Assembly: GCA_030584085.1 (NCBI GenBank)
Contig: CP129490.1
Location: 2,265,511 to 2,329,510 of the forward strand
Length of the DNA: 64,000 bases
Source: Melioribacteraceae bacterium
GTDB taxonomy: Bacteria > Bacteroidota > Ignavibacteria > Ignavibacteriales > Melioribacteraceae
Direction: 5' to 3'
Within the stretch, counting starts at the first letter, position 1. Every line of letters begins with the position of its first letter. The notes beneath the pieces were generated by a model that was not told the DNA's origin, searched no databases, and was given only the letters and a program-made list of their open reading frames with translations. Below are positions 36,578 through 57,533 of this stretch, in pieces. Position numbers and translations under genes: made by a program.

Positions 36578-36802
36578 CTATTTATCAAACACTAATTTGT
36601 AAACAGTTTTTGTTGATGACTTGCGGGCTTTATCAACAACAATTTCATGGTCTTGAGAAAGGTTTAAATAGTAAGAAAGAAGTTCAATAGATTTTGTGAT
36701 GGCTTCGTCTTCATCGTTCGACCAGCATTCGCAACCTTTTATCGACGGAATTTCAGCGGTATAACCGTCGCCGGAATTATCAATTATTAGATCCAAAACC
36801 AT
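36578..36802 (-). CDS. HicB-like domain protein without a HicA partner
   Basis: A 74-residue protein with the partial RNase H fold of HicB: LIIDNSGDGYTAEIPSIKGCECWSNDEDEAITKSIELL. No HicA toxin gene is adjacent on either side, and no C-terminal DNA-binding domain is present, so it is a solitary member that may bind RNA or regulate locally. Its start overlaps the deoC stop by one base (TAATG), and trmH follows one base after its own stop. It is therefore a cotranscribed housekeeping-type gene rather than a mobile addiction module. Confidence 0.72.
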   Translation of the reverse strand: MVLDLIIDNSGDGYTAEIPSIKGCECWSNDEDEAITKSIELLSYYLNLSQDHEIVVDKARKSSTKTVYKLVFDK

Positions 36803-43091: not shown

Positions 43092-44003
43092 TTAAAGCTG
43101 CTGAATAATATATTCTAATCTATTTGGAACTGTATCAACAAATTTTGTGAATTCCGGTGCGATTACATTCGGGATTAGATAACCAAGTGAATCCTTAATT
43201 GCCTGATCAAATCCAATAGTTACTTTTATTTCTTCTTTATTTAATCTACCAAGCAGATTAATTCCGCCGCGCAAAATTACATTCACTTTCTCAGGATAGA
43301 TTGTAAGGTTTTTTGATGGCGGAATATTTATTATCTCAATAGGTATATCTTGGAATTCTTTATCAACAATTTTTTGAACATCGAAAGTCACTAATACATT
43401 TTCTTCGGAAAAATTTATATTATCAATTGTTGATAATGAAACACTCTCAGTCTCACTATTATCTATGTTGTTCAGAGATTTTTGTTCCGTACTAACGAAA
43501 CCGACGCCTTGAACCAAGCTCTTTGGTCCGCTAATTACAATCGAATCGGGTTGAACGATGATATCAGCAACTAAGCCGAATCCATCTTTAAAATTGAGCG
43601 AGAGATCAGGAACAACTTCAACTTTTTTTTCGGCAATCTCTTCAAGCCTATATCGAATTTCATTTGGGGAAAATTCGTTTATCTGGACAGCCGATGAAAG
43701 CCAACGATTTTGATCCATCGCGTTTCTAACTAAAATCTTATGTTCACCGATTTTCTCTTCGACGTTAATAATAAATTCAGATTGTGAACCAAGTGAAAGT
43801 TGAGCGAGCTGCCACCCTTGACCTTTTAAAGATAATGAAACTTCCTTAGTAGAATAATTTGAAACAGCCATTCCTTGAGGGATCTCAGTAAAGCTCAAAG
43901 GAAGTTTCACCGAATAGAAATATTCTCCCGAAAACGAAACAAATATCCAAAGCATGATAGAGAAGGATATAATGAAAACTGTTGTAATAATCTTTTTAGT
44001 CAT
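43092..44003 (-). CDS. YbbR-domain membrane protein (CdaR-like)
   Basis: A 303-residue protein with one N-terminal membrane helix (residues 5-22) and an extracytoplasmic region containing YbbR-like repeats; the segment VVPDLSLNFKDGFGLVADII with SIVISGPKSLVQGV is typical. In Firmicutes CdaR regulates the c-di-AMP cyclase CdaA, but no cyclase gene is adjacent here. The ATG overlaps the left 13-bp repeat of the integrated element, so the element sits directly upstream and has replaced the native leader. It forms a unit with the S41 protease. Confidence 0.8.
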   Translation of the reverse strand: MTKKIITTVFIISFSIMLWIFVSFSGEYFYSVKLPLSFTEIPQGMAVSNYSTKEVSLSLKGQGWQLAQLSLGSQSEFIINVEEKIGEHKILVRNAMDQNRWLSSAVQINEFSPNEIRYRLEEIAEKKVEVVPDLSLNFKDGFGLVADIIVQPDSIVISGPKSLVQGVGFVSTEQKSLNNIDNSETESVSLSTIDNINFSEENVLVTFDVQKIVDKEFQDIPIEIINIPPSKNLTIYPEKVNVILRGGINLLGRLNKEEIKVTIGFDQAIKDSLGYLIPNVIAPEFTKFVDTVPNRLEYIIQQL

Positions 44004-44014
44004 AGTCTAAATAT
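44002..44014. repeat. left attachment site core (attL candidate)
   Basis: ATAGTCTAAATAT, identical to 53850-53862. It overlaps the start codon of the YbbR gene. Confidence 0.65.
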
Positions 44015-44092
44015 TTACCAGTTTTTTCCGACCCCTAAATATTGCCTTTACGAGCTAAAAACGCAAATTTTATCAAAATTTTATGAGTATAA

Positions 44093-44113
44093 AGTAACAA
44101 ATGAGTAACAAAA
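44093..44113. repeat. arm-type repeats inside left end
   Basis: Two copies of AGTAACAA at 44093 and 44104, 11 bases apart. The 21-base block matches 20 of 21 bases at 53688-53708. Spacing and location suit integrase arm-binding sites. Confidence 0.6.
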
Positions 44114-44188
44114 AATTAGCTTTCTCTTAAGTTACTGATTAAATTTAACGATTATTATCAACTTTCGGAAATGGTTATTGAGGTCAAT

Positions 44189-44494
44189 TCATTTACCTAA
44201 TCGAGACTCTTTTCTAATTTCTTTTTTAATTTCATTTACAATTTTGTTTCTTACCTTTGCCCGCTTCGTCCCGAATATAGCAGCCTCTACAGTTTTAATA
44301 CTCGTGTTATATTTTTCACTTAATGCAACTCGGAACTTATACTTTTGACCATAGGCAAGATCACCCGTTAACTCTGATTGAAAGTATTCTCGAATGAGAA
44401 ATATATCCCTGAGAAAACATCTTATCGCTTCGTCGTCACTCTCTTCTAGTAACTCGTTCGTAAGTTGAAATATTCGCGTGTCTTTCAAACTCAA
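44189..44494 (-). CDS. phage-element protein, possible helix-turn-helix
   Basis: A 101-residue basic protein, last gene of the element before its left end. The segment VALSEKYNTSIKTVEAAIFG looks like an HTH of the kind found in small terminase subunits or regulators, but the match is by eye only. The C-terminus is strongly basic (KKEIRKESRLGK). It is separated by about 270 bases from the next element gene, and that gap holds a large hairpin. Confidence 0.55.
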   Translation of the reverse strand: MSLKDTRIFQLTNELLEESDDEAIRCFLRDIFLIREYFQSELTGDLAYGQKYKFRVALSEKYNTSIKTVEAAIFGTKRAKVRNKIVNEIKKEIRKESRLGK

Positions 44495-44594
44495 CCCTCA
44501 GCTTTTGAAGATACCAGGAATGAAATACGAATGTTTTCGTACTTTAGAATGGCGCAAATCGACACACTTCGCCAATTCTCATTTTAAATAAAAT

Positions 44595-44654
44595 AAAAGT
44601 GCATTTATCGCTCAAAAGGTAAATATCGCCTTTGTTGCATCAAAATGCACTTTT
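44595..44654. repeat. nested hairpin in element intergenic region
   Basis: AAAAGTGCATTT (44595-44606) and AAATGCACTTTT (44643-44654) form a perfect 12-bp stem, enclosing AAAGG/CCTTT (44615-44633). T-runs flank both sides, so it could terminate transcription from either strand. It follows the tape-measure unit. Confidence 0.65.
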
Positions 44655-44766
44655 TAGGTGTCCACGCAGGTAAGAAATGACCCATCAAAAAACTCTTAAA
44701 TTTGCCTTTTTTCTCTCGTGCTCTGTCGTAAATGCTGCATAAAATTTAATAATATTGCGAATTATC

Positions 44767-45072
44767 TTAATTTTTCTGAATTTTTCTAAAAATATTGCTT
44801 AAAAAACTGCTCACTTTTTCAAAGATTGTGTCTTTGCGATATTCCATAAGTGGTAAATATGTAATTTCAATCAGATGAAAAACTTGTCTCAAATCTTTAT
44901 TAGCATTACCGATATTTTCAATAAGTTCTTTTAATTCCGCTTTTACTTTCGGACCTGATGGATCTTCCGGTAATTTATCGAGAATTTTAATACCCAATGA
45001 AATATAACCTCTAGCTGTCACCAAACTTTGGTACATCATTTTTTTATTATCTTCAGTCAACATTTTAGACAC
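44767..45072 (-). CDS. small phage-element protein of unknown function
   Basis: A 101-residue, mostly helical protein (VTARGYISLGIKILDKLPED, then KVKAELKELIENIGNANKDL) with a basic C-terminus. It follows the tape measure gene after a 12-base gap and is probably cotranscribed with it. No family recognised. Confidence 0.55.
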   Translation of the reverse strand: MSKMLTEDNKKMMYQSLVTARGYISLGIKILDKLPEDPSGPKVKAELKELIENIGNANKDLRQVFHLIEITYLPLMEYRKDTIFEKVSSFLSNIFRKIQKN

Positions 45073-45084
45073 CCTTCTTTTTTA

Positions 45085-47178
45085 TTATGTCGTGCGATTG
45101 TAAACCCGACCATTCTTTTTATTCTGGATGAACATATCCCGTCCGTCAAGATGACCGTAAACATTTATGTTACCCTCAATTTTTTGTTTTTGATATTGCA
45201 TATCGACCATTTGCATATTAAGAACATCTAGCCTACCTACAACTTGATTTAAAAGTCGATCGTTATTTAAAACTTGACTCGCAGGTGTAACAGATACCCT
45301 CTCACCTGATTCGACCATCAAAGGATATGAATCGTTTGGAAATCCTTTGGGAACTATAAACGATCCACCGGTTGACATTTTTTTAATCCCGCTTGGTGTT
45401 CCTACAAAATTTCCACCGGCATGAGCACCAGGAACAATAAAGCCGGTTAAAAATCCTAGTGGATTAGTAAGTCCGGAAATTGCTGCAGAAATAGCAGCGG
45501 CACTTTGCAATATTGAAACAATGCTTTGAACTACACTAAGAGCATTCATCATTTTACCGATGAATGAATCCCCAGCTAGATCAAAGGCATTCATTAAATT
45601 ACTACCGATGGAATTACTTTCGTTTAAGAGAGTACCTAATGCACGTTCCCGATTTTCTTTATCTTCTTCTTCGATTGCTCTTCGCACTTCTGCTAAGGCT
45701 AATTCTTGTTCTAATCGTTTTTGTGCTCTCTCTTCGTCTTTTTCAATCAAACCATCCATAAAGGAAAATTCACTGTTCATACTTTCTTCTAGTGGATCAG
45801 TTAGAAAGGCTTTTCGTTCCTCAGCTAATTGTGCTAGCTGTTCATTTTTCCATCGTTCAGCGTTTACAGTGTCACCTGTCAATTTCAACATAGATTGATA
45901 CTCTTCATCAATCAACTTTTTTCTATATTCTGAATAACCGTCTGCAAGAAATTTCAAATCTTCAAACATCTTTTTAAAAGCATCTTTTTGCTTGTCTGAA
46001 TCTATCCCACCGCCAAGATCACTAGTTCCATCTTTATTATTTCGCTTAGCAAGTTCTTTATCAAAATTAACTATCTGGTTAATTTGTGTCTTTAGTGCTG
46101 AAGATAACATTTCTAATTGTTTCGATTTTTCTTTAAGCTCTTTACTATCACCAAACAACCATTGAATCAAGCCGCCTGCTGAATTATTTCTTGTGGATAA
46201 ACTCAATTGAATTCTAGCAATTTCACCCATAGTCGCGGCTAATTGAGTTTGTAATAATTTCAGTTCCTCTTCTCTATATTCGCGTGTGGTATTGATCAGA
46301 TTTTTAAAGAATTCGTCTTGTGCTTCGATTGTGGTATTGTATTGCTGCTGTATTCCTAAAATCTTTTGTGCAATTCTTAACCATCCGACACCGGCCTTAA
46401 TTAATTCATTGAAAGCAGGAACTAAACCATTTCCAATAGTCACAAGTGTATTATCAAATTCGGCCCTCAATCGTTTTTCTTGATTTGCAAGGGAACCGGC
46501 CGTTCTAATTGCATCACCATGCGCATCTGTTGTACCTTTCATTATCAAATTCATTCGCGCTTGTACTTTAGCTGCATTGCTTAACTCTTGACCAAGTTTC
46601 GCAAGGCCGGAACTATAGGCCTCTTCTTTTACATTTGCCTCAGTGATTACAACACCATATTTACGGACAGTTTCAGTATTTCCTACCAATGCTGAGGTAA
46701 AGTCTCGTAAGACATCATCATCCGCAGCATTACTAAAAGAAGCAACATCAATTGCTAATTTTGTCAACTCTTTTGAGAACTCAGAGGCTTTATCTCGTGC
46801 AAACCCTAGAGGAACAAACGTATCTTGAAGAGTGCCTAACCATTTAAGAAGATCAGCGTTTGATCTTCCAACACTTTTTCCTAAATCTTTTGCCCATTGT
46901 TCGACGTTGTCGGACATATCACCAAAAACGACCTTGAACTTAGATCGTATTTCTTCAAAGTCTCGTGCTGCATTTTTTGCCTGTAATGAAAAATTAAAAA
47001 GCTTTGCAAAACTTAAGACACCTGCACCGGCAATCAATGCGCTTTTAAATTTACTTCCGAATGACCGACCCATGTTTGAAGCGTCTCGATCAATTTTGTT
47101 TTTAGTGTCGTTAATTTCTTTTCTCAATTGAGTGACATCACCCTCAATCATTACTTTTATTTTTGCTAGTTCGTCCAT
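45085..47178 (-). CDS. phage tail tape measure protein
   Basis: About 697 residues from the ATG at 47178 (GGAG upstream; the longer frame begins at TTG). The N-terminal part is typical of siphophage tape measures: DELAKIKVMIEGDVTQLRKE, then a helical region with LLKWLGTLQDTFVPLGFARD and SALVGNTETVRKYGVVITE. A long coiled coil and a hydrophobic segment near residues 560-600 (SVVQSIVSILQSAAAISAAI) follow. At about 700 residues it would specify a short tail. It directly follows the gp10-like gene. The missing tail-tube and chaperone genes are notable. Confidence 0.85.
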   Translation of the reverse strand: MDELAKIKVMIEGDVTQLRKEINDTKNKIDRDASNMGRSFGSKFKSALIAGAGVLSFAKLFNFSLQAKNAARDFEEIRSKFKVVFGDMSDNVEQWAKDLGKSVGRSNADLLKWLGTLQDTFVPLGFARDKASEFSKELTKLAIDVASFSNAADDDVLRDFTSALVGNTETVRKYGVVITEANVKEEAYSSGLAKLGQELSNAAKVQARMNLIMKGTTDAHGDAIRTAGSLANQEKRLRAEFDNTLVTIGNGLVPAFNELIKAGVGWLRIAQKILGIQQQYNTTIEAQDEFFKNLINTTREYREEELKLLQTQLAATMGEIARIQLSLSTRNNSAGGLIQWLFGDSKELKEKSKQLEMLSSALKTQINQIVNFDKELAKRNNKDGTSDLGGGIDSDKQKDAFKKMFEDLKFLADGYSEYRKKLIDEEYQSMLKLTGDTVNAERWKNEQLAQLAEERKAFLTDPLEESMNSEFSFMDGLIEKDEERAQKRLEQELALAEVRRAIEEEDKENRERALGTLLNESNSIGSNLMNAFDLAGDSFIGKMMNALSVVQSIVSILQSAAAISAAISGLTNPLGFLTGFIVPGAHAGGNFVGTPSGIKKMSTGGSFIVPKGFPNDSYPLMVESGERVSVTPASQVLNNDRLLNQVVGRLDVLNMQMVDMQYQKQKIEGNINVYGHLDGRDMFIQNKKNGRVYNRTT

Positions 47179-47179
47179 T

Positions 47180-47497
47180 TTATTTAGCTCCAAGAATTTT
47201 TTTAATATTGGGTATGTTTTCCAATAAAGCCGGTCTTAAATATGGCCTAGCACCAACTTTATGAGTCCCGAGCTCTACATAGACTCCATAAGTCACATTC
47301 GTACCAATTGAGGCCGTCATTTTATTACCCTCAAATTCAACTTGATAGTTGATCGAATCTCTCAAGCGTCCAGTATCAACTGGACACCTGAGTTTAGCTT
47401 CACTGACTACATACTCAGCGGCTAATTCTAATCTATCTCTGTAAATCCTCCTTAGAAGATCTTCGATTTTCGGAATATTCCATTCACTCTTAACCAT
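47180..47497 (-). CDS. HK97 gp10-like head-tail/tail completion protein
   Basis: A 105-residue protein with the HK97-gp10 pattern: a long N-terminal helix, CPVDTGRLRDSINYQVE, a short strand pair (ASIGTNVTYGVYVELGTHKV) and GARPYLRPALLEN. The family joins the tail to the head-tail connector. One base separates its stop from the tape measure start, so the two are coupled. The usual neighbours (major tail protein, connector) are absent. Confidence 0.82.
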   Translation of the reverse strand: MVKSEWNIPKIEDLLRRIYRDRLELAAEYVVSEAKLRCPVDTGRLRDSINYQVEFEGNKMTASIGTNVTYGVYVELGTHKVGARPYLRPALLENIPNIKKILGAK

Positions 47498-47508
47498 TGA
47501 TTAACTCC

Positions 47509-48276
47509 TTAAGAAAAATTTGATTCGGTAGCCCAATAACCTGGACTGCCGGAAAAGCCTAGATAATCGGCTTCGCTTTTGTTTTTCCTTGCATCAAACA
47601 CATGCACCTCAGAAATCGGTATAGGCAAAAAGGCATAGTCCTTTCCGATGGTGACGGTTTCTAAGAATTGTCTAGATAAAGAATATCCAATACAATTAAC
47701 TGTGTATGATACTCTTCTTTCTGTAGCTCCGATTTCATTTTCAAATTGTTGATTTAGTACAACTAATTTTGATTCGTTCTTGAAATTAATGTCATCAAGA
47801 AAATTGAGTTCGTTAAAGATTGCTGAGACATAATCAACTCGTCCCAATTGCATCGCTGTTTGAATCTCGTCCAGAATTCTTTCGAGATGTTTTTTATCTT
47901 TAGCACCTTTTTGCACCAAGTTAATTGCTGCATTGATCTGCATCTCGCCTGCAGTACGTTCCGATGGTTTTGTGACCGATGGTTCGGAACTCGATAACGG
48001 GTAAAGAGTTTGAGCTAGTTTTTTAAGTTGATATTTTTTTTCTTCAGCGAATTTTTCAATGAATTGCTTTGCCTCAGGAATGTAAGTTGCTCTGAGTTGG
48101 ATTCTCTTGGCCTCAGCTTGCTTTGTTAGTTCGGCCGGCATGATCTTGCTTTGGTTATCTGACAACCATTTTTTTAATTGATCCAAAGCGTTGTTATAAC
48201 CACGAATGGAATTTGTCAATTTGCTAAGTGCTCCATCGTTGATTAATTTCGAGCGTTCGATTATACGTGGATCCAT
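47509..48276 (-). CDS. phage-element protein of unknown function
   Basis: A 255-residue protein with a good ribosome binding site (AGGAG). The first 170 residues are helical and charged (NALDQLKKWLSDNQSK, YQLKKLAQTLYPL). The last 80 are a mixed domain (RRVSYTVNCIGYSLSRQFLE, FLPIPISEVHVFDARKN). It could be a structural or scaffolding-like protein because it precedes the gp10-like gene by 11 bases, but no family is recognised. Confidence 0.6.
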   Translation of the reverse strand: MDPRIIERSKLINDGALSKLTNSIRGYNNALDQLKKWLSDNQSKIMPAELTKQAEAKRIQLRATYIPEAKQFIEKFAEEKKYQLKKLAQTLYPLSSSEPSVTKPSERTAGEMQINAAINLVQKGAKDKKHLERILDEIQTAMQLGRVDYVSAIFNELNFLDDINFKNESKLVVLNQQFENEIGATERRVSYTVNCIGYSLSRQFLETVTIGKDYAFLPIPISEVHVFDARKNKSEADYLGFSGSPGYWATESNFS

Positions 48277-48280
48277 GATA

Positions 48281-48535
48281 CTATTCTCCTGTTTTGAATA
48301 ATGATTCTAGTTTATTTATGGTTTGTGCAAGTATTGCAGCATCTTTTTTTCTAATTGATCGAATTGATACTTTATTCCTTTGGAAGTCGGTTTTAATTTG
48401 TTCAAGGTTTTGGAGGCACTCAGTTATTAAAAGCGTGCTCCCTTGTTCCCTAGTCGGAATTTGTATCTCTTTTGTTACTTCATCTTTCGGAAGATGGTTA
48501 AATCTTTGTTTTATGTTATTAATTATAGTTTTCAT
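48281..48535 (-). CDS. small phage-element protein of unknown function
   Basis: An 84-residue, mainly helical basic protein (IINNIKQRFNHLPKDEV; CLQNLEQIKTDFQRN). It lies 4 bases upstream of the 255-residue protein gene, so both are cotranscribed. No family recognised. Confidence 0.5.
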   Translation of the reverse strand: MKTIINNIKQRFNHLPKDEVTKEIQIPTREQGSTLLITECLQNLEQIKTDFQRNKVSIRSIRKKDAAILAQTINKLESLFKTGE

Positions 48536-48603
48536 ATCTCACTTTATATTTAAGCTCCAAATAAAAAGCTTGTTTTTTATATAATTTGTTTGTGCTCCCA
48601 TGC

Positions 48604-49302
48604 TTAACGTGCTCCCTTTTTACGATAATCTTCACCATCAAACTTTAGTATTTCGCAAGTCGCAGCTAACCGGCTCCCAATTCGTGGATCGAGTGAATCG
48701 AATTCTTTAGGTGAAAAATTTGTGGTTATGATAAAGTCTTTTTCAGAATTGTAAAAAGCATTGATCAAGCTATATAAGTTCTCAGCTCGTGCCGGTGTGA
48801 AGTTCAAAGGTGAAAGATCGTCCAACAAAACAACATCAAATCCCAAATATTTTTTAACCGCGTATGACTTACTTTCAAAACGAGCGACCGATCCATTTAA
48901 TTCCTGGAAGAAATCTTCAGCAGGTAGAAATAAACATTTTGTTGATCTTACCACCGCTATTAATTTTCCGTCCTCCTCTTCTAAAACTGATTTGATACGA
49001 TAAGCATTCATATAGCGTGGTTTTTGTTTTTTAAGAATTGAAATCGCTAGATGAGTTTTTCCGGAACCGACTGTTCCAAACAATACCAATGATTTTTTAT
49101 CCGTATTACCTGCAGCAAACTTTTTGCATGAGTTTAATTTCTTTCTCGTTTCTTCATCAAACGGAATGAAGTTATCAAAAGATTTTTCCCGATAATATTC
49201 AGGCAAATTTTTTATTTCCGGAACACAAGATTCAAGCAGCTCATCAGAGCTCATCAGTTCCGTCAAAGACTGACCCATTTTCGCTTCGGCTTCCATGACC
49301 AT
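48604..49302 (-). CDS. DnaC/IstB-like ATPase, probable helicase loader
   Basis: A 232-residue AAA+ protein. Walker A is LFGTVGSGKTHLA, Walker B is FDVVLLDDLSP, sensor 1 is DFIITTNFSPKEF, and the arginine finger region is DPRIGSRLAATCE. It matches DnaC/DnaI-type loaders that bring the replicative helicase to a phage origin. It overlaps the putative initiator gene upstream by 59 bases if the first ATG is used; later in-frame ATGs exist at 49296 and 49278. Together they form the replication module of the element. Confidence 0.85.
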   Translation of the reverse strand: MVMEAEAKMGQSLTELMSSDELLESCVPEIKNLPEYYREKSFDNFIPFDEETRKKLNSCKKFAAGNTDKKSLVLFGTVGSGKTHLAISILKKQKPRYMNAYRIKSVLEEEDGKLIAVVRSTKCLFLPAEDFFQELNGSVARFESKSYAVKKYLGFDVVLLDDLSPLNFTPARAENLYSLINAFYNSEKDFIITTNFSPKEFDSLDPRIGSRLAATCEILKFDGEDYRKKGAR

Positions 49303-49948
49303 TTCGCTTTTCCCAATTTGTTTGATTTAATTCACCATCTTTTTTTAACCATGTCAAAACAGTAAGATATGTACTTACATATTTTTTCTTTTTTGTGTTT
49401 ACATGGTTTTCCATTGCTAAAAGTTTATCCTTTACTTTTTCTTCAGAATAATCTTTTAAAAGTTTTTTGCATTCATCAAGCGTTAATTGTTTTTCGAGTT
49501 TTGAAACATTCGGTAAGTTTTCAGAAACGAATTTTTGAAGAGAATGAATTTCATTTTCTTTAAAAACTTTATTAATAATTACATCTCCATTTTCAATTAC
49601 ATCTCCATTTTCCATATGTGGATCATATGTTTTTGATGTGTTATTCATATCTTCTTGTTTAGTTCTGTTCTTCCTTCTACTTTCAGCATATTTTTTGCGT
49701 TTTATTACTTCTTCTCTTAATCGCTTGTTATAAAATTTTCCATCCTTATCCTTTACATATTTATCCTTAATGGCATCCCAAACATCTTGTGATTGACATA
49801 TCACGATCATATCTTTTTCAGGTAATGAGTATTTATCAGCTAGATGACATAGTATTCTGGTATGCGCTCCGACTTGCTCATTTGAAAGGAAAGTTGTACC
49901 AACTATAAAATCTTGATAGTATAAAAGGAAAGCAGGATCTTTAGCCAT
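49244..49948 (-). CDS. putative phage replication initiator (DUF1376-like N-terminus)
   Basis: About 234 residues from the ATG at 49948, which lies one base past the stop of the upstream HTH gene; the longer frame starts at TTG. The N-terminal 90 residues (AFLLYYQDFIVGTTFLSNEQ, AHTRILCHLADKYSLPE, DGKFYNKRLREEVIKRK) resemble the DUF1376/replisome organiser winged helix. A charged linker follows, then a small helical C-terminal domain (LDECKKLLKDYSEEKVKDKL). Its position before the DnaC-like gene supports a role in origin recognition. The function is inferred. Confidence 0.68.
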   Translation of the reverse strand: MAKDPAFLLYYQDFIVGTTFLSNEQVGAHTRILCHLADKYSLPEKDMIVICQSQDVWDAIKDKYVKDKDGKFYNKRLREEVIKRKKYAESRRKNRTKQEDMNNTSKTYDPHMENGDVIENGDVIINKVFKENEIHSLQKFVSENLPNVSKLEKQLTLDECKKLLKDYSEEKVKDKLLAMENHVNTKKKKYVSTYLTVLTWLKKDGELNQTNWEKRNGHGSRSENGSVFDGTDEL

Positions 49949-49949
49949 C

Positions 49950-50168
49950 TTAATAACCCGCTGCTTTAGCTTCGATTTCTGAGTTTGTGGAAACTCGATT
50001 ACCGTTGACTTGATCCATGAGCTCGGATTCTTTAAATAAAGTTCGCGACCCAATTTTATAATGAGGGATTTCTTTTAGGAAGCACTTTTTGTAAACTGTA
50101 CTTTTCTGGATTCTTAGAAGTTGTGAAACTTCATCAACTGTTAAGAAGCTTTCTTTTTGGTTTGGCAT
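49950..50168 (-). CDS. helix-turn-helix DNA-binding protein (excisionase/MerR-type HTH_17)
   Basis: A 72-residue protein with FLTVDEVSQLLRIQKSTVYK as the HTH and HYKIGSRTLFKESELMDQV as the wing, typical of Xis/AlpA-like proteins. The stop abuts the initiator start. It could act as excisionase, as a regulator of the replication module, or both. The element encodes a second protein of this type at 52040-52219. Confidence 0.78.
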   Translation of the reverse strand: MPNQKESFLTVDEVSQLLRIQKSTVYKKCFLKEIPHYKIGSRTLFKESELMDQVNGNRVSTNSEIEAKAAGY

Positions 50169-50267
50169 TTTTTCGCTCCATCATTTTTTATTGTGATTTC
50201 TAGCGAAAAAATAAGATGTATTTTTAAGGAGTGTTAGTCGAAAAAAATCGAAAAAAATCGAATGGTT

Positions 50268-50756
50268 TTACTTAAATAAATTCTCCATTTTTTCTGTTGG
50301 CATTGCACCCTCAGTATTGAGTCTGATTTTGCTCATGGCATCCGATATATCTTTATTATTTACATTATCACCCTGAATCGTGAAATGACTAGCTAGCATT
50401 TTTAAGTCTTTTTTAATGTAACCACCACTGATTAACCTATCCATAATAAAAGCAAAATCTTTAATCTTACCATCGAAATTAATTTTATTATCAAGCTGCT
50501 GTTTTAAATCAGGAAGTTTTTTTTCATAATACTCAATTTCATTAATACACAATTTGTATGATCTGTAAAGGCTGTTGGCTTCATCGTCAACACGATTATT
50601 ATTAACCTCATGTTCTTTAATTATATCATCAATGTTTCGTTTTCCAATTTCACGTTTTAACCAATAAACATAAGCTAGTTTATCCGAATCTTTTTTTAAC
50701 TGCTCTAAGTGCTTTCTTATCTTACTTACGCTGAATTCAAAAGTTTGATTTTTCAT
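50268..50756 (-). CDS. phage-element protein of unknown function, behind a structured leader
   Basis: A 162-residue charged helical protein (IRKHLEQLKKDSDKLAYVYW, CINEIEYYEKKLPDLKQQLD). It recalls in general composition RteC-like regulatory proteins of Bacteroidota elements, but that is not a firm match. TGGTGG precedes the ATG. Its 5' leader contains the three-way-junction RNA and terminator at 50770-50844, so its expression is probably controlled by attenuation. Confidence 0.55.
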   Translation of the reverse strand: MKNQTFEFSVSKIRKHLEQLKKDSDKLAYVYWLKREIGKRNIDDIIKEHEVNNNRVDDEANSLYRSYKLCINEIEYYEKKLPDLKQQLDNKINFDGKIKDFAFIMDRLISGGYIKKDLKMLASHFTIQGDNVNNKDISDAMSKIRLNTEGAMPTEKMENLFK

Positions 50757-50769
50757 AACACCACCAAAT

Positions 50770-50844
50770 AAAAAAGCCCGTCTGAATCTCGGTTATGCTG
50801 TTTCCCGCAGCACCGGAATTTCTTCCGGAAGATTCAAACGAGCT
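50770..50844 (-). ncRNA. three-way-junction RNA ending in an intrinsic terminator
   Basis: On the minus strand AGCTCGTTTGAATCT pairs with AGATTCAGACGGGCT (15 bp, two G-U pairs that only work on this strand). It encloses CCGGAA-GAAA-TTCCGG and TGCTG-CGGGAAA-CAGCA. Six T residues follow the closing stem directly. It is either a cis-acting attenuator for the 162-residue protein or a free small RNA of about 100 nt. I recognise no known RNA family. Confidence 0.7.
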
Positions 50845-51064
50845 ATATAAAATTATTCTTGGTAGCATGGGAAATTGTATAACCTTTCGTTAAAAAATAT
50901 CAACACAAGAAAATAGATAAGTATTTTTTTAGAGTAAAATTATTAATAACATTTTTTTTATTGGTAATTCTCTCAATGCTGTTACCCCTCTGTTACTTAT
51001 CCGGTCATAATGTTTATTTCAGCACAAAAAACAGTTAATTAATATTTAAGGTGAAAATGTAAAG
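50845..51064. other. non-coding stretch, part of a 308-base gap between element genes
   Basis: Apart from the promoter at 50876-50903, I see no gene here. The stretch is very AT-rich. Confidence 0.5.
50876..50903 (-). promoter_or_regulatory. probable promoter of the structured RNA
   Basis: On the minus strand TTGATA (50903-50898), 16-base spacer, TATACA (50881-50876). A start a few bases downstream would give a leader of roughly 110 nt containing the three-way junction. Confidence 0.5.
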
Positions 51065-51619
51065 CTATATTTTAACCTCTTCAACAAACATTTCTTTTAT
51101 CGTATCATCGATATATGTTAGTAACATGCTAAAAGTTTGATGTCGGATTTTATCGATTTCTTTTTCTATCTCTGATAAAGTTCTCCTTTGTAATAATACT
51201 TGGTGTAATGCTTCTTGATACGCTTCACTTATTGACTTTCCTTTTATTCTGGCATTATAACCATTTGAAATTTTGCACTCAATACCATTCACTTTTTGAA
51301 AAGCCATTTTTTGAAAATTAATAATCTCTGCTTTTGTTAAATCATGTTCAAATATGTCTTTTGGACTTGGTGAAAACTCTTGCCTGTTCAATAGTGATTC
51401 AACAAAATTAAGGAAATCGTTTTCCCTAGCAATTTCATTTTTTATTCTTAATCTCTCACCTAATATCTCAGCAGGTTTTTTCATTATTGCTTTATGTCTT
51501 TTATTTCTTTTAGCTGCATGAGTTAAAGACGGACTTTGAAGTATATCCCGGTCTTTTGGTTCATATAGAAAGTTATATTGTTTCCTTGCTGTGTTTACTC
51601 TTTTTAGTTGTGCTCTCAT
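51065..51619 (-). CDS. phage-element protein of unknown function
   Basis: A 184-residue basic helical protein with a good ribosome binding site (GAGGGTGAG). Notable segments are LTHAAKRNKRHKAIMKKPAE and KAEIINFQKMAFQKVNGIEC. The basic N-terminus suggests nucleic-acid binding. No family recognised. It follows the 94-residue protein gene after about 28 bases and is probably transcribed from the operator-controlled promoter near 52004. Confidence 0.58.
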   Translation of the reverse strand: MRAQLKRVNTARKQYNFLYEPKDRDILQSPSLTHAAKRNKRHKAIMKKPAEILGERLRIKNEIARENDFLNFVESLLNRQEFSPSPKDIFEHDLTKAEIINFQKMAFQKVNGIECKISNGYNARIKGKSISEAYQEALHQVLLQRRTLSEIEKEIDKIRHQTFSMLLTYIDDTIKEMFVEEVKI

Positions 51620-51647
51620 ATCTCACCCTCTTTCGTTATTTTTCAAC

Positions 51648-51935
51648 TTAAGCATTGATTTTTATCTCTTCTTTGAGTTCTCCCGTTTCTAGATAATCAA
51701 TAACATTATGAATTCGGCTTTCAGAAACTTCAAAAGGTGTAAAATCGAAAATATTTTCAAATCCAAATTCATTGCTTAAATGTGCTAAATGACTTCTGAG
51801 TGCTAATAGAGTATTGTTTACATTTTCTAATTGTTCAATAGCACAAAAGTTATCACGCTGCAGGTCTTTAATTTTTGCAGGATCTAAATTGTTTTCAGTA
51901 ATTAACGTGTTTTGTGTTTCAATACTTGTTGACAT
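51648..51935 (-). CDS. small phage-element protein of unknown function
   Basis: About 95 residues from the ATG at 51935, chosen for its perfect GGAGG site; the longer frame would read through the promoter region. It is acidic and mostly helical (AIEQLENVNNTLLALRSHLA, then a short motif FDFTPFEVSESRIHNVIDYL). It is the first gene transcribed from the promoter at 51990-52018, which carries the palindromic operator. It may be an early regulator. Confidence 0.58.
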   Translation of the reverse strand: MSTSIETQNTLITENNLDPAKIKDLQRDNFCAIEQLENVNNTLLALRSHLAHLSNEFGFENIFDFTPFEVSESRIHNVIDYLETGELKEEIKINA

Positions 51936-51989
51936 AAAGCCTCCATTTGTTTTTGTTAAATTATATTTATTACATCCCATAGAAGAAAA

Positions 51990-52018
51990 CTTATATTCAT
52001 TACTTGACACTGTGTCAA
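51990..52018 (-). promoter_or_regulatory. promoter with palindromic operator, copy 1
   Basis: On the minus strand TTGACA, 17-base spacer, TATAAG. The 15-bp perfect palindrome TTGACACAGTGTCAA (52004-52018) starts at the -35 box. It drives the 51935 gene. Confidence 0.75.
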
Positions 52019-52039
52019 ATAATTAAGCAAAAAAATAGA

Positions 52040-52219
52040 TTACATTGATTTTGTTCTTTCATTCATAATTATTGCAATCGACCCATCCGACAGTCTGATA
52101 TAATCTCGATTAACTTCAAGCTTATTATTCTGAATCCAATTGTAAATAGTTTGTCTTGATAATCCCTTGTGATTTGCAAAATCTCTGACAGTGTAATATT
52201 TTGAATTAACTTTTCCCAT
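52040..52219 (-). CDS. small helix-turn-helix protein, probable excisionase
   Basis: A 59-residue protein. Its HTH is YYTVRDFANHKGLSRQTIYN, followed by a wing-like segment (NKLEVNRDYIRLSDGSIAII). This is the Xis/HTH_17 fold seen next to many tyrosine integrases. A palindromic operator-promoter lies immediately upstream and the second copy just downstream. The predicted transcription start is only a few bases before the ATG, so the mRNA may be nearly leaderless. It is a candidate both for excisionase and for the repressor of the twin operators. Confidence 0.75.
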   Translation of the reverse strand: MGKVNSKYYTVRDFANHKGLSRQTIYNWIQNNKLEVNRDYIRLSDGSIAIIMNERTKSM

Positions 52220-52230
52220 ATCTCATTTCA

Positions 52231-52259
52231 ATAATAAAAATCTTTTGACACAGTGTCAA
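52231..52259 (-). promoter_or_regulatory. promoter with palindromic operator, copy 2
   Basis: On the minus strand TTGACA, 17-base spacer, TATTAT, ending 11 bases before the ATG at 52219. The 15-bp palindrome TTGACACTGTGTCAA (52245-52259) starts at the -35 box and matches copy 1 except for the central base. Confidence 0.78.
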
Positions 52260-52288
52260 CAATAAAATTTAATACCAATTCTTTTTTC

Positions 52289-52408
52289 TTAAGTCAATAA
52301 TCTCAAATCAAATTTCGCTTTTAAATCGCTTCTAAGGCTCGATCTTTCGAGAGGACTAGGAAATCCTCTCATGTGCTCACTTAATTGCAGCCTTGCAGCG
52401 TTCCCCAT
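52289..52408 (-). CDS. possible 39-residue ORF downstream of integrase
   Basis: An ATG 19 bases after the integrase stop opens a 39-codon frame (GNAARLQLSEHMRGFPSPLE near the start, DLKAKFDLRLLT at the end). The stretch is richer in G+C than its neighbours and also holds a 7-bp hairpin (GAGAGGA/TCCTCTC). It may instead be a structured RNA or a terminator-like region. No ribosome binding site is clear. Confidence 0.25.
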   Translation of the reverse strand: MGNAARLQLSEHMRGFPSPLERSSLRSDLKAKFDLRLLT

Positions 52409-52427
52409 TTAAATGGTGCGATTCTGT

Positions 52428-53666
52428 TTAACCACCTAAATCATATTTTGGCAATTTTGAAATAGCCTTTTTTCTTTCTTGATCAGTAACATGGATATAT
52501 TTTAAAGAAGTCTCGTATTTCTTATGACACATCAATTCTTGTATTATTTCAGCCCGCTTATCAACTATCCTAGCTAAACTGGTTCCAAAGGTATGACGGC
52601 CGTAATGGAATGATAACTCTTTATTAACTTTTGCAGCTTTAGCCCATTTTTTTAATTGAGTGTTTACAGTTGGAAGAGTTGGAAGATCAAAAACCTTTCT
52701 ATCCGGAAGCGGTTTCACATTTAAAGGCAATCTCATATTTAATATTTCAAGTGCTGAATCACCTAGAGGCGCATCAAAGTTTTCTGTTTCGGTTTTTTGG
52801 ATTGTCATATTAAATCTACCATCGCGAATATTTTTCCACTTAAGTGCCTCCACATCGCACCATCTTAATCCGGTAAAACAAGAAAATAAAAATGCATCTC
52901 TTATTTCTTTTCGGGTGAATGGTTTTTCAATTAATTGCTTCAATTCATCTTCATCAAGAAATTTTAATTTTGACTCTAGCTTTTTATTTGACTTACTTGG
53001 TGCTTTTGGTTTATCAACTCGACCCAAATATTTACTTGGATTTTCTGTAATATAACCCTCCAGGACTAACTCATTCAATACCCTGTTAAGTTTGCTGTAA
53101 TACATGTGCACCGTATTGCGATGTAATTTTTGTGCACTCAGAAAGGCTACAAAGTTTTTAACAAAGTCGCGGTTAACATCTCGGATTTTTATCAACTGAT
53201 CTTTATAGGCTACTTTAATAAAATCGGTTAACCATCCTAAAGTAGATTCATAATTCTTATGGGTAGTTTTCGGCTTCTCTCTTTCTTTCTTTTGGACACC
53301 AACATTATCCTTAACCTTAAGATTGCTTGTATAGGTAGTAAAGTATTGGAGGAAAGATTTTGAATTATCCTTTGTAGATATTCCGTTCAATTCATTATTT
53401 AATTCTTGTTCTCTCTTAATCCTAATCGCTCGGACTTCGCTTTTAATTTCTGCTTTTTTTTCTTTTGTCATCCATTTGTAGATATACTTATTCAAAAATT
53501 CATACCGTCTTTTATACCTGAGCTTAAAGAGCTCCCTATATCTATCAGGATCCTTTCTTTTCAATTCGGCTGTTGGTGTTGGAATGTTTTTGTTTGTTTC
53601 GGTAATATCTAAGTAGTAAGAAATGGTACCATCTTTTAAAACTTTTTGTCTCTCAATCACTCTCAT
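52428..53666 (-). CDS. tyrosine recombinase/phage integrase
   Basis: A 412-residue integrase. The N-terminal arm-binding part (IERQKVLKDGTISYYLDITE) and SAM-like core-binding domain (about residues 120-215) precede the catalytic domain. Active-site residues are Arg in FTGLRWCDVEALKW, Lys in TIQKTETENF, His and Arg in FHYGRHTFGTSLA, and Tyr in TSLKYIHVT near the end. Length and layout match Bacteroidota-type element integrases. It reads away from the right attachment region, which lies just upstream of its start. Confidence 0.94.
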   Translation of the reverse strand: MRVIERQKVLKDGTISYYLDITETNKNIPTPTAELKRKDPDRYRELFKLRYKRRYEFLNKYIYKWMTKEKKAEIKSEVRAIRIKREQELNNELNGISTKDNSKSFLQYFTTYTSNLKVKDNVGVQKKEREKPKTTHKNYESTLGWLTDFIKVAYKDQLIKIRDVNRDFVKNFVAFLSAQKLHRNTVHMYYSKLNRVLNELVLEGYITENPSKYLGRVDKPKAPSKSNKKLESKLKFLDEDELKQLIEKPFTRKEIRDAFLFSCFTGLRWCDVEALKWKNIRDGRFNMTIQKTETENFDAPLGDSALEILNMRLPLNVKPLPDRKVFDLPTLPTVNTQLKKWAKAAKVNKELSFHYGRHTFGTSLARIVDKRAEIIQELMCHKKYETSLKYIHVTDQERKKAISKLPKYDLGG

Positions 53667-53687
53667 TTTTTCACCTCTAATTAGTCG

Positions 53688-53718
53688 AGTAACGAATGAG
53701 TAACAAAATAAGTAACAA
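53688..53718. repeat. arm-type repeats inside right end
   Basis: AGTAACGA at 53688 and AGTAACAA at 53699 and 53711, spaced 11 and 12 bases. They match the left-end cluster and lie just upstream of the integrase gene. Confidence 0.6.
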
Positions 53719-53849
53719 AAATTAGTAAAACAAGTAAAAACAGATCATAAGAAAAAGTATATGTAAGTCGTTGTATTGTATGAAGTTAGAGCAATAAATC
53801 ACAATAAATCAAAAAGTGTAAAAACGCTTAAAAAAGGCATGCTATATTT

Positions 53850-53862
53850 ATAGTCTAAATAT
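53850..53862. repeat. right attachment site core (attR candidate)
   Basis: ATAGTCTAAATAT, identical to 44002-44014. It abuts the T-run of the BMC operon terminator. Confidence 0.65.
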
Positions 53863-53887
53863 AAAAAAACTCCACATAGAGTGGAGT
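53863..53887 (-). terminator. terminator of the BMC shell gene pair
   Basis: On the minus strand ACTCCAC/GTGGAGT forms a 7-bp stem with a 5-base loop, followed by seven T residues. It lies about 30 bases after the stop of the second shell gene. Confidence 0.85.
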
Positions 53888-53915
53888 TCAAAAAAAAAGA
53901 TACATTGAAATTTAT

Positions 53916-54548
53916 TTACCGCAACGAATCAAAATGATCTATCAGTTCCTGTCGATTTGCTTTGGATATGTCTCTTCCTTTAATTGGAAAAGATTCGAAA
54001 CTTCTGGCCAATTTTCTTAATTCGTGAACGTTCAACTTTTGCAACTCAGATTTTGCAGGAATATCTCCCGTCTCTTCTTGAACACCAAAATCAAATTGAT
54101 CCTCTGGTTCATCAGTTTCTTCTTCCGTTAAGGTTTCGTCAATCTCATCCTTTTCTTCAATATCAATTTCTTCAACTTCATCATCTAATTCATCAGTTAA
54201 AGTTAATTCATCGTCTTCTATTTCAACTTCTTCAACTTTTGGAGTAGCTTTTTCTTTCTTTTTAACAGGCTCTAAATCCTTTTCATAAACTATTGATTCA
54301 ATTTGATCATCGGGTCTAGGAATAACGTGGGAAGAAACAAGTTGACCACTTCTTTGAGCTGCCGCGCTTCCGGCATCAACGGCTGATTTGACCGCGGCAA
54401 CCTCACCGACAATCTTAATAACAATCAATGCGCCGGTGACTTTTTCTTTGCTCACAAGTTTTACATTAGCAGCTTTACACATAGCGTCTGCTGCTTCAAT
54501 AGCACCAACCAAACCTTTGGTTTCAATTAATCCTAGTGCGAGATGCAT
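53916..54548 (-). CDS. BMC shell protein with acidic linker and SAP/Rho-N-like C-terminal domain
   Basis: A 210-residue protein. Residues 1-88 are a full BMC-H fold ([40 protein letters not shown]). Residues about 90-165 are a disordered linker, basic first (PVKKKEKATPKV), then very acidic. The last 43 residues (LQKLNVHELRKLARSF, ISKANRQELIDHFDSL) resemble a Rho N-terminal/SAP helix-extended-loop-helix, a small nucleic-acid-binding fold. Shell proteins with tails (PduK, EutK) are known; this type of tail suggests binding to nucleic acid, to cargo or to partition factors. It follows the plain BMC-H gene after 8 bases. Confidence 0.88.
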   Translation of the reverse strand: MHLALGLIETKGLVGAIEAADAMCKAANVKLVSKEKVTGALIVIKIVGEVAAVKSAVDAGSAAAQRSGQLVSSHVIPRPDDQIESIVYEKDLEPVKKKEKATPKVEEVEIEDDELTLTDELDDEVEEIDIEEKDEIDETLTEEETDEPEDQFDFGVQEETGDIPAKSELQKLNVHELRKLARSFESFPIKGRDISKANRQELIDHFDSLR

Positions 54549-54556
54549 AATCTAAA

Positions 54557-54838
54557 TTACTTTGAACGTTTCGGTATAATAAGTTCAACATCAGAGTGAG
54601 GGCGCGGAATGACGTGAACAGAAACCAACTCTCCTACTCTTTGAGCTGCTGCTGCGCCGGCATCTGTAGCAGCTTTTACTGCTCCTACATCACCTCTTAC
54701 CATAACAGTTACATATCCGCCGCCGATTGTTTCTTTTCCAATCAATTCAACTTTTGCGGCTTTTACCATGGCATCGGCAGCTTCAACTGCTCCGACTAAT
54801 CCTTTGGTCTCGATCATTCCTAGTGCGTCTAATGTCAT
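54557..54838 (-). CDS. BMC-H hexameric shell protein (PduA/EutM-like)
   Basis: A 93-residue single BMC domain forming hexamers that tile a microcompartment facet. Recognised motifs are [20 protein letters not shown], the pore loop near residues 35-42 ([13 protein letters not shown]), and [20 protein letters not shown]. The pore loop is Gly-rich, so small polar substrates may pass. It is the first gene of a two-gene unit with its own strong promoter. No pentamer protein or cargo enzymes are adjacent, so this is a satellite shell locus. Confidence 0.96.
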
Positions 54839-54927: not shown

Positions 54928-55353
54928 TTATTTTGTGTGGTTTAAATAATCTTCTAGGATTACAGCAGCGGCGTTTTTATCAATTAGTGACTTGTCTCTA
55001 CGCTTCTTTTTTGATGATACGGTTTCCAAAATTCTTTGTGATGCTATTGTGGATGAATAACGTTCGTCAAACATTTCAATTTGTAATCCGGATTTTAATT
55101 CAAGCTCATTCTTGAATTTAATTATCAATGATGTGAGTTTAGTATCATTTCCGTCTTCACTTACCGGATTGCCAAGTATTACTGTAACTACATTTTTTTC
55201 TTTTATTAAATTCAATATGAACTGTAAGGTTTTAGTATCGTTGGGAATTGTCTGAAATGGGATTGCAAACATTTTTAGTGGATCGGTTAAAGCTAATCCA
55301 ATTCTTTTTGTACCAAAATCTATGGCAAGGATTCTTTCTTCTTTTGTAATCAT
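54928..55353 (-). CDS. ruvX: Holliday junction resolvase-like RuvX (YqgF)
   Basis: A 141-residue RNase H-fold protein: ILAIDFGTKRIGLALTDP at the N-terminus, VVTVILGNPVSEDG, MFDERYSSTIASQRI and a C-terminal Asp-bearing segment (KNAAAVILEDYL). The family processes the 5' end of pre-16S rRNA in E. coli and may resolve Holliday junctions. Its ATG overlaps the end of the rel gene by one base, so they are coupled. Confidence 0.94.
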   Translation of the reverse strand: MITKEERILAIDFGTKRIGLALTDPLKMFAIPFQTIPNDTKTLQFILNLIKEKNVVTVILGNPVSEDGNDTKLTSLIIKFKNELELKSGLQIEMFDERYSSTIASQRILETVSSKKKRRDKSLIDKNAAAVILEDYLNHTK

Positions 55354-57533
55354 TAGTTTGAGATTTCAAATCGTTCTACGGAATAGATTCCCCTATTCTT
55401 TTTCAATCTTTCAATTATTTTATTTAGATGTTCCAGATCTGAAATAAAGACTGAAATTGTGCCATGAAACATCGAATCACCTGTAGAAATATTAACTGAT
55501 TTTATATTAGTGTTTTTGTATGTAGTTATTATGTTCGAAATGTCTTTTAGAATTCCCGGCATATCTTCACCGTGAATATCAATTCCGGCCACGAACATCG
55601 ATCCATTTGATCTGGGCCAATTGACAGGTACTAATTTATCCGGTTGACTTTTAGACATTTGAATAATATTAATACAATCCTTCCTGTGAATTTTTATTCC
55701 TTCCCCCGTAGTAATAAAACCAATTATTGGATCGCCGGGAATTGGATTACAGCATTTAGCATAGCTATGTTGAATTCCTTTATGTTCTCCTTCAACTACA
55801 ACATTACCCCCCGATACACCTCTAGCTTGTTCAACAAATGTATCAAAAAACAATTCATTCGATTCTTCTTCTCCGCTTTCTTGAACTGGGTTTAAAATAT
55901 CATCAGGATTTTGTTTGCCAATAGCTATATCCTTAAATAGTTGACGAGGGTTATCATAACGCAATTTATGTGCGAGTCGATTAATTTCGTCGATCGATAA
56001 ATTCTTTTTGTGTTTTTTGGCTTTTTTATCCCAAATCTCTTTTCCTTGTTCTACAAGTTTGTCCTCTTCCTTATTCAAATATCTTCTAACTGCGGATTTT
56101 GCTTTATGAGTTTTAACAAATTGAAGCCAGCTTTTATTCGGATGCTGATTTTTTGAAGTGATAATTTCAACTTGATCACCGGAATGAAGAATTGTATCGA
56201 GTGGAACAATTTTTCCATTTAATTTTGCACCAATACAATGATTACCGACTTTTGTATGAATTTCAAAAGCAAAATCTACAGGGGTTGAATCAATCGGCAA
56301 TCTTTTTAATTCACCTTTTGGAGTAAAGATGTAAATTTCATCTTGGTAAAGATTCAATCTAAAGCTGGCAAGAATTTCTTTTGTTGCTTCATCTTTCGTA
56401 GAATTTTCAAAAATATCTCTAACCCAGTTAACCCATTCCTCTAATTCCGTATCATCTGAAATTAGATTTTCTTTGTATTTCCAGTGAGCAGCAACACCTT
56501 TCTCTGCAATTTCATGCATCTTGCGTGTTCTAATTTGAATCTCAACCAACCTGCCATCAGGACCAATCACGGTATTATGTATAGACTGATAATTGTTTTT
56601 CTTCGGAATCGAAATAAAATCTTTAAAACGATCTTGAATTGGTTTGTAGTGTTGATTAATTATCCCCAGTACATAGTAACATTCATTGGGATCTTCGTTT
56701 TCAAGAATAATTCTTACCGCAAATAGATCATAAATTTCTTCAAATGATTTCTGCTGATTTATCATTTTTCGATAAATACTATAAAGATGTTTTGCTCTTC
56801 CACCAATCGAAAATTTTAGATTGTGAGCTTTTAATTTTTCTTCAATCGGTTTTGAAAATTTTGCAATATATGCTTCTCGTTCTCTTCTTTTCTCATTTAC
56901 TTTTTTGGCTAAGTCTGCATAGGCTTCTTTGTTTAAGTATTTAAATGCTTGGTCTTCCAACTCCCACTTAACACGGCCCAATCCGAATCTATGAGCAAAG
57001 GGAGCATAAATTTCGAGAGTTTCTTTTGCAATTCTTCTTTGTTTTTGTGGATTTACGAATTCGAGTGTTCTTATATTGTGTAGCCTATCGGCAAATTTTA
57101 CTAAAATAACTCTAACATCTTTTACCATTGATAGAAGAAGTTTGCGATAATTTTCAGCTTGAGATATATCCTGACCCTTAAAAACACCGCCAATTTTTGT
57201 AACACCATCAACGATATCGGCTACTTCTTTACCAAATTCTTTGCTCAAAAATTGTAAACCAATTTCTGTATCTTCAACCACATCATGAAGCAATGCAGCG
57301 ATTACAGAAACATCGTCTAATGGAATTTCTTTAGCTACAATTAATGCAACTTCGTAGGGATGATTGAAATATGGTTCACCGGAAGCTCTAAAATCATTTT
57401 TGTGTGATTCGTAGCTTAATTGGAATGCTTTTGCGATTAATGATTCATTAACCACCGGAAGATGCTCCTTACAAACTGTAAGCAGCTCTTCTAGCATTTT
57501 TTGTTGCTTTATGCCGGTAATTACAGATTCCAT
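55353..57533 (-). CDS. bifunctional (p)ppGpp synthetase/hydrolase (Rel/SpoT)
   Basis: A 726-residue stringent-response enzyme. The HD hydrolase domain has AALLHDVVEDTEIG and FADRLHNIRTLEF. The synthetase domain has IYDLFAVRIIL and GRLVEIQIRTRKMHEIAEKG. A TGS domain follows near residues 395-455 (DEIYIFTPKGELKRLP), then a helical/zinc-finger-like region (SYAKCCNPIPGDPIIGF) and a C-terminal ACT domain (about 655-726, VAGIDIHGEDMPGILKDISN). Both catalytic halves look intact, so it should make and degrade (p)ppGpp. Confidence 0.95.
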   Translation of the reverse strand: MESVITGIKQQKMLEELLTVCKEHLPVVNESLIAKAFQLSYESHKNDFRASGEPYFNHPYEVALIVAKEIPLDDVSVIAALLHDVVEDTEIGLQFLSKEFGKEVADIVDGVTKIGGVFKGQDISQAENYRKLLLSMVKDVRVILVKFADRLHNIRTLEFVNPQKQRRIAKETLEIYAPFAHRFGLGRVKWELEDQAFKYLNKEAYADLAKKVNEKRREREAYIAKFSKPIEEKLKAHNLKFSIGGRAKHLYSIYRKMINQQKSFEEIYDLFAVRIILENEDPNECYYVLGIINQHYKPIQDRFKDFISIPKKNNYQSIHNTVIGPDGRLVEIQIRTRKMHEIAEKGVAAHWKYKENLISDDTELEEWVNWVRDIFENSTKDEATKEILASFRLNLYQDEIYIFTPKGELKRLPIDSTPVDFAFEIHTKVGNHCIGAKLNGKIVPLDTILHSGDQVEIITSKNQHPNKSWLQFVKTHKAKSAVRRYLNKEEDKLVEQGKEIWDKKAKKHKKNLSIDEINRLAHKLRYDNPRQLFKDIAIGKQNPDDILNPVQESGEEESNELFFDTFVEQARGVSGGNVVVEGEHKGIQHSYAKCCNPIPGDPIIGFITTGEGIKIHRKDCINIIQMSKSQPDKLVPVNWPRSNGSMFVAGIDIHGEDMPGILKDISNIITTYKNTNIKSVNISTGDSMFHGTISVFISDLEHLNKIIERLKKNRGIYSVERFEISN

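Follow-up and report, generated by a model that had tools for sequence, protein, structure and literature searches.

A microcompartment shell protein of the BMC-H type carries, in most genomes of a bacterial order, a small C-terminal domain which appears by comparison of genomes to be real and old; this tail goes with a scattered compartment but seems able to outlive it, under a selection of its own. What is new is the wide conservation of the tailed protein and the separate fate of its tail. The protein lies in a stretch of 64,000 nucleotides from a Melioribacteraceae bacterium (order Ignavibacteriales), the whole of which we call the window and to which bare coordinates refer. We propose, with a probability of about 0.5, that a scattered (FRAG-type) compartment for deoxyribose phosphate has the tailed BMC-H among its facet tiles, and that nucleic acid bound by the tails tethers the shell or the bare oligomer. 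The gene and its parts are the following:

53916-54548, minus strand: BMC-H shell protein with C-terminal SAP/Rho-N-like domain, 210 aa, one intact frame
54312-54539, minus strand: BMC-H domain, residues 4-79 (PF00936, E 2.4e-27, 95.1 bits; strand and helix order of the model)
54069-54287, minus strand: acidic linker, residues 88-160 (35 D/E and 7 K/R among 73 residues; pLDDT below 50 at 117-157)
53919-54053, minus strand: SAP/Rho-N-like tail domain, residues 166-210 (sequence comparison and predicted fold)

The PF00936 score is above the curated cut-off of 24.5 bits, and the BMC domain is single and non-permuted, the match running in one stretch over positions 1-75 of the 75 of the profile. 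In an AlphaFold2 model of the monomer (alignment of 48 sequences), the BMC fold is predicted confidently, with a strand and helix order which is canonical by our reading of the model, and so are the four helices of the tail (166-171, 174-183, 192-196 and 199-209). The isolated tail, modelled on 75 sequences, has a mean pLDDT of 85. An earlier note, made from the letters of the sequence, had described a complete BMC-H domain fused to such a C-terminal domain; this observation is correct, and the case for it is better than the note had claimed. The fusion is not due to chance, because the tail is found in 52 of the 58 genomes of the order (own genome included, one copy each), with 12 invariant residues in the 47 of 51 tails which were aligned (four being left out).

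These genomes have a stated completeness of 88-100%, on which the calls of absence depend. The six without a tail are G001 (590 contigs), G024 (where the gene reaches a contig edge), G034, G042, G053 and G057. The search for the same fusion elsewhere, which the earlier note had proposed as a check, was extended to 395 genomes of the phylum and gave 78 matches; G253 and G320, with 19 positions matched at E about 0.009, were dropped, which leaves 76. Outside the order, 37 tails were read (of 39 matches) and all of them end a BMC-H-like protein; the BMC part of G245 is strongly decayed, and is called BMC-like by reading rather than by comparison with PF00936. A scan of contigs of GTDB species with one order-typical motif returned 116 stretches; 112 were confirmed and 80 kept, under names which include Ignavibacteriales, Melioribacter, Stygiobacter, Bacteroidetes and Chlorobiota bacterium, and what follows refers to these 80. 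The tail motif stands in a frame in 79 of them, and a simple motif for the start of BMC is matched by 72. Of the seven which do not match it, four (L142, L146, L154 and L155) agree with a BMC profile and two are cut by a contig edge, L145 retaining the last part of a BMC domain and L152 beginning in the linker; L125 has a stop within the BMC domain. L156 starts inside the tail. We also looked for the tail in proteins other than BMC-H and found none: at E up to 10, its single match in the own genome is the tailed BMC-H, and every complete copy read (own genome, GTDB contigs, the 37 from outside the order) is fused to a BMC-H.

When aligned, the tails have 'LNVHxLRxLARSxxNFPIKGREISKANRxxLLxYF' in common, and eight residues are invariant across 56 diverse tails. 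A basic residue stands at positions 178, 182, 192 and 199 in every one of 89 tails compared, and at position 196 in about 90%; the sole common acidic position is 193 (78%). The residues kept in every tail are core-like hydrophobics, one glycine and the four basic residues, as far as exposure can be inferred. The tail as a whole is basic only weakly: with one choice of boundaries its net charge is positive in 51 of 51 tails of the order, with another in 46 of 52 in the order and 30 of 37 outside it, G009 having a charge of -1 and G245 of 0.

The linker had been described as acidic, which stands for the protein of the window and fails as a trait of the family. Within the order its length ranges from 35 to 277 residues, and 39 of 51 linkers have a net negative charge. 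Outside the order, where its ends were set by a simple motif, it spans 10-101 residues, and with 14 linkers net negative, 15 net positive and 8 neutral (n=37), acidity is ruled out as a key feature; on the sequences compared, the acidic linker is incidental. In a distant relative (L241), the linker is rich in Lys, Ala and Pro and resembles in this histone-H1-like tails.

Structure prediction of the tail, another check put forward in the earlier note, found its best matches in Rho (N-terminal domain) and FAN1 (SAP domain). With VIA-align, the predicted tail was placed on eight chains of Rho at Z 4.5-5.5, with 42-44 residues superposed at an rmsd of 1.3-1.9 A, and on four FAN1 chains in their SAP region at Z 4.1-4.3. 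One can notice that a TFIID chain equals Rho (Z 5.4), and that all Z values are below 8, values of 4.1-5.5 over 41-44 residues lying in the range of common arrangements. Foldseek returned no match to the tail model at E <= 0.001, its top-ranked hit being again Rho (E 3.7), and a sequence profile search of the PDB gave matches at chance level (best E 0.41). At E up to 1, the Pfam family Rho_N matches 28 of the 56 diverse tails (best 9.9e-6) and SAP 20 of 56 (best 0.001); in a closer set of tails the figures are 10 and 1 of 47. The tail of the window itself scores 17.2-17.4 bits with Rho_N (PF07498), under the cut-off of 24.9, and SAP (PF02037) is absent from its Pfam matches. The fold call of the earlier note is modestly supported: a SAP/Rho-N-like tail is favoured by its predicted fold and by weak profile similarity, while the tail stays outside Pfam membership. 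Unlike the Rho N-terminal and SAP domains, it has a conserved 'GREIS-K/R-AN' loop which is typical of the tails compared here.

The surroundings of the gene are conserved as well. Its neighbours are listed here; for these and other loci, YbbR, EngA, CoADR, S41 protease, PduS and tape measure are putative gene names:

54557-54838, minus strand: plain BMC-H (EutM-like), partner gene directly upstream (PF00936, 3.5e-30; NCBIfam EutM 137.4 bits, cut-off 133)
54928-55353, minus strand: RuvX, conserved neighbour (PF03652; homologue in 76 of 78 loci)
55353-57533, minus strand: RelA/SpoT family protein, conserved neighbour (TIGR00691, 729 bits; homologue in 76 of 78 loci)
43092-44003, minus strand: YbbR-like protein, conserved downstream neighbour, split off by an inserted element (homologue in 76 of 78 loci; no NCBIfam match at 1e-10)

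The 78 loci are 19 stretches of 15-20 kb and 59 contig loci longer than 9 kb; some species are present twice, and one entry, L055, is a different locus. In 75 of the 78 the tail is accompanied by RelA/SpoT, RuvX and the YbbR-like gene, mostly in one order. A gene of about 205 aa usually comes next; the one copy tested (L042) is a dTMP kinase (TIGR00041). The locus looks like a housekeeping operon, unlike the usual compartment operons, which are substrate-induced.

This arrangement bears on the main rival of our proposal, namely that the tail is a hook for protein, whose arginines recruit a conserved cytosolic protein (a positioning factor or the product of a neighbouring gene) without any part for nucleic acid. 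The constant company of RelA/SpoT, RuvX and the YbbR-like gene means that a partner may be at hand, rows of invariant residues would suit a protein interface equally, and SAP-like folds bind proteins too. However, the positions kept universally are hydrophobic and core-like, or glycine, or basic, with position 193 as the only common acidic one, and Rho and FAN1, which the predicted tail matches best in structure, are binders of nucleic acid. We consider a protein hook possible but the less probable of the two, with nucleic acid as the likelier ligand.

The compartment to which the shell protein would belong can be outlined from the own genome (3.74 Mb, one contig). Shell genes occur there at four places: the BMC-H pair, a BMC-T gene, a BMC-P pair and a single BMC-P gene. 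Scattered shell genes with three BMC-P genes are features of the FRAG type, which is reported in Ignavibacteriae (PMC8217296); the likeness here is one of gene arrangement. DeoB (phosphopentomutase, NCBIfam 536 bits) stands one PIN-domain gene away from the BMC-P pair, and comparison places it close to BMC-P genes in 10 of the 10 relatives fetched for that purpose. The window itself contains the aldolase:

36802-37671, minus strand: DeoC with an N-terminal extension of about 60 aa, likely compartment cargo (TIGR00126, 281.7 bits, residues 68-278)

Among the 58 genomes of the order, 54 have DeoC and 45 of these have the extension. An aldehyde dehydrogenase (L164), of the acylating type and with an end resembling an encapsulation peptide (both by eye), is also encoded. 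DeoB and DeoC convert deoxyribose 1-phosphate to deoxyribose 5-phosphate and this to acetaldehyde and glyceraldehyde 3-phosphate; the likely pathway of the compartment leads by these two enzymes from deoxyribose 1-phosphate to the same two products. The genome thus probably fits a scattered compartment of the FRAG type for deoxyribose phosphate, which would break down the sugar of DNA. The DeoC-type compartment which the earlier note had assumed gains support from this comparison, by the closeness of DeoB to the vertex (BMC-P) genes, the frequency of the DeoC extension and the targeting-like end of the aldehyde dehydrogenase. In PMC8217296 the function of this type of compartment is left open, and the same link suggests what its substrate may be.

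Some details of these loci can be added. The aldehyde dehydrogenase gene (C1:866426-867208) lies about 14 kb from the single BMC-P gene (C1:880976). The BMC-P pair (L039, 8884-12091) stands between DeoB, often with the PIN-domain gene, and a gene which by eye resembles a sigma factor; DeoB and the sigma-like gene are nearby in 10 of the 10 relatives fetched (L278-L287). At the BMC-T locus (L038, 9555-12669), BMC-T, an RnfC/PduS-like electron-transfer flavoprotein and a SpoIIE-type phosphatase follow in a row; a phosphatase adjoining shell genes appears to be unusual.

The genomes which lack the DeoC extension offer a natural experiment on the tail. The DeoC match starts at residue 1-9 of the window's DeoC in the 45 genomes with an extension, and at residue 42 or later in nine (G009, G020, G034, G035, G039, G042, G046, G053 and G057). 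We read 30 of the 45 extended sequences and all nine of the others; four of the nine have N-terminal stretches of 43-59 residues unrelated to the extension, and the DeoC of G039, just 37.5% identical, may be no orthologue. No BMC-P was found in G009, G020, G034, G039, G046 and G057. G035 was grouped with them as having lost the compartment, its only BMC-P lying in a separate clustered locus, and so were G042 and G053, in which all PF00936 matches are on one contig, with the two BMC-P listed (of four) both there; we infer that these two genomes carry only a different, clustered compartment. The nine genomes therefore seem to lack the scattered compartment, because of the absence of BMC-P or its clustered placement, and the DeoC extension is absent in exactly these nine.

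The tailed protein is kept in five of the nine (G009, G020, G035, G039 and G046) and missing in the other four. Among the five, the plain BMC-H has a normal score in G009, a weaker one in G046 and G035, and is not found in G020 and G039. A sixth case, G245, outside the order, is tailed and has no BMC-P. Of 89 tailed proteins, those six score lowest in the BMC domain, with 0.16-0.28 where none of the other 83 falls under 0.40 (p 3e-9); in the tail they do not stand out (p 0.78). The BMC profile scores of a second set of 89 loci, which overlaps the first in part, have two peaks: ten rows score 27-80 bits, and the remaining 79 reach 146 bits or more. The tails of the ten low rows score 70-79. On a quick RelA tree (89 rows of which 80 are different, some species entering twice from two collections, G245 left out), the decay of the BMC domain needs five changes, and the starred branches force five.

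Over the 395 genomes, tail and BMC-P occur together in 72, the tail only in four (G020, G039, G046 and G245), BMC-P only in two (G278 and G371) and neither in 317, an association of 2e-71 by the Fisher test with shared ancestry ignored. Because BMC domains decay while tails stay ordinary in genomes which seem devoid of the compartment, the tail appears to have a function of its own; since it outlives the shell, its job would include more than positioning a closed compartment. The suggestion that the tail mainly serves the compartment, for segregation or for substrate supply, is weakened by the same five relatives with a normal tail.

Two further readings must be weighed against this pattern. 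The tail could be a leftover without present function, or a tag for assembly or solubility: the linker varies in charge and in length (10-277 residues overall), and four of the nine genomes without a compartment have no tail either. Eight invariant residues in diverse tails and a tail which does not decay where the BMC domain does make this very improbable. The tail could also face the lumen and bind there the cargo, or nucleic acid feeding the DeoB/DeoC pathway. DeoC and the aldehyde dehydrogenase do bear targeting-like ends, and the orientation of native shells is described as disputed in PMC6109187, which leaves room for it; still, the tail is conserved in G009, G020, G035, G039 and G046, whose DeoC has no extension. 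A long nucleic acid should moreover not enter a closed shell. We regard a lumenal tail as unlikely, if less so than a leftover.

Our preferred proposal, the tether, works as follows. A hexamer of the tailed BMC-H would carry six SAP/Rho-N-like domains on flexible tethers, which may reach the cytosol; these would bind nucleic acid through four or five basic residues (R178, R182, R192, K/R196 and K/R199), and sites which are weak singly would bind strongly where a hexamer brings six of them together. In this way the nucleoid or RNA would hold the shell, or a bare oligomer, and after loss of the shell the bare oligomer would keep a related role. As to the side on which the tails emerge, the N-terminus of PduA is on the concave side, which points outward in recombinant shells, and the same was assumed for the C-terminus (PMC6109187). 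Against a tether, one can note that four of the nine genomes which seem to lack the compartment have no tail either, and that the five which keep it are not accounted for by pure positioning. A further reading is that of a protein with two jobs, which would be a shell tile where there is a compartment and, alone, probably an oligomeric binder of nucleic acid in a housekeeping role tied to RelA/SpoT-RuvX, the second job being kept after loss of the compartment; we put this forward tentatively, at somewhat less than even odds. If it is true, a shell protein became, or began as, a factor associated with the nucleoid or with RNA. More generally, the survival of the tail after the seeming loss of the compartment suggests that a shell protein can take on other functions of the cell, or originate from them. 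The placement of compartments other than carboxysomes, and their sharing at division, are largely an open question, for which the tailed BMC-H is a concrete candidate tether with four residues to mutate.

The closest precedent is EutK of the ethanolamine-utilisation compartments, which likewise consists of a BMC-H domain and, C-terminal to it, a domain for which nucleic-acid binding has been proposed (PMC12487888). According to the same source, Eut compartments become polar and more static when EutK is deleted; the authors suggest that the C-terminal domain of EutK, which is positively charged, binds nucleotides, and that EutK has a ParB-like role. However, the tail of EutK is reported as PF16365 (PMC12058022), a different family, which was not among the matches of the 47 and 56 tails at E up to 1, a search in which the HMMER filters drop most weak matches. 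The tailed BMC-H scores 84.3 bits with NCBIfam EutK, for a cut-off of 218, so that homology to EutK is unsupported. Unlike EutK, moreover, its gene stands among housekeeping genes and the protein can outlive the compartment. The granule proteins PhaF and AlgP are unrelated to it and have in common with it the principle alone, that the way in which a cytoplasmic body is distributed is influenced by a region which binds DNA: AlgP without its DNA-binding C-terminal domain gives altered polyphosphate granules (PMC13052382).

On the side of metabolism, SPU metabolosomes resemble the present system by a DeoC-type aldolase and an aldehyde dehydrogenase, and were proposed for the catabolism of DNA sugar; their genes are described as one locus (PMC4207490), whereas those of the own genome are scattered and no PduL domain (PF06130) was found in it. 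For Melioribacter roseus, which has a PVM-like locus, the same source counts seven BMC-P genes, spread over five loci. Neither 'C-terminal extension' nor pfam07498 occurs in the main text of PMC8217296, and we found no description of a fusion of BMC-H with a SAP/Rho_N-like domain in the titles or abstract starts of the open-licence literature on microcompartments with Rho_N, SAP or DNA-binding domains.

Finally, the element which separates the tailed BMC-H from the YbbR-like gene in the window appears to be mobile. It extends over 44093-53725, is bounded by an imperfect direct repeat (44093-44119 and 53688-53725) and contains an integrase (52428-53666, PF00589), its other genes being phage-like by eye. 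Most relatives are without it; L130 has another insertion at the same place, and the gene order of L052 is also broken there. The gene of about 205 aa is missing from the window (44003-53916) and also from L041, a relative of the same genus which has no insertion; hence its absence was not caused by the mobile element.
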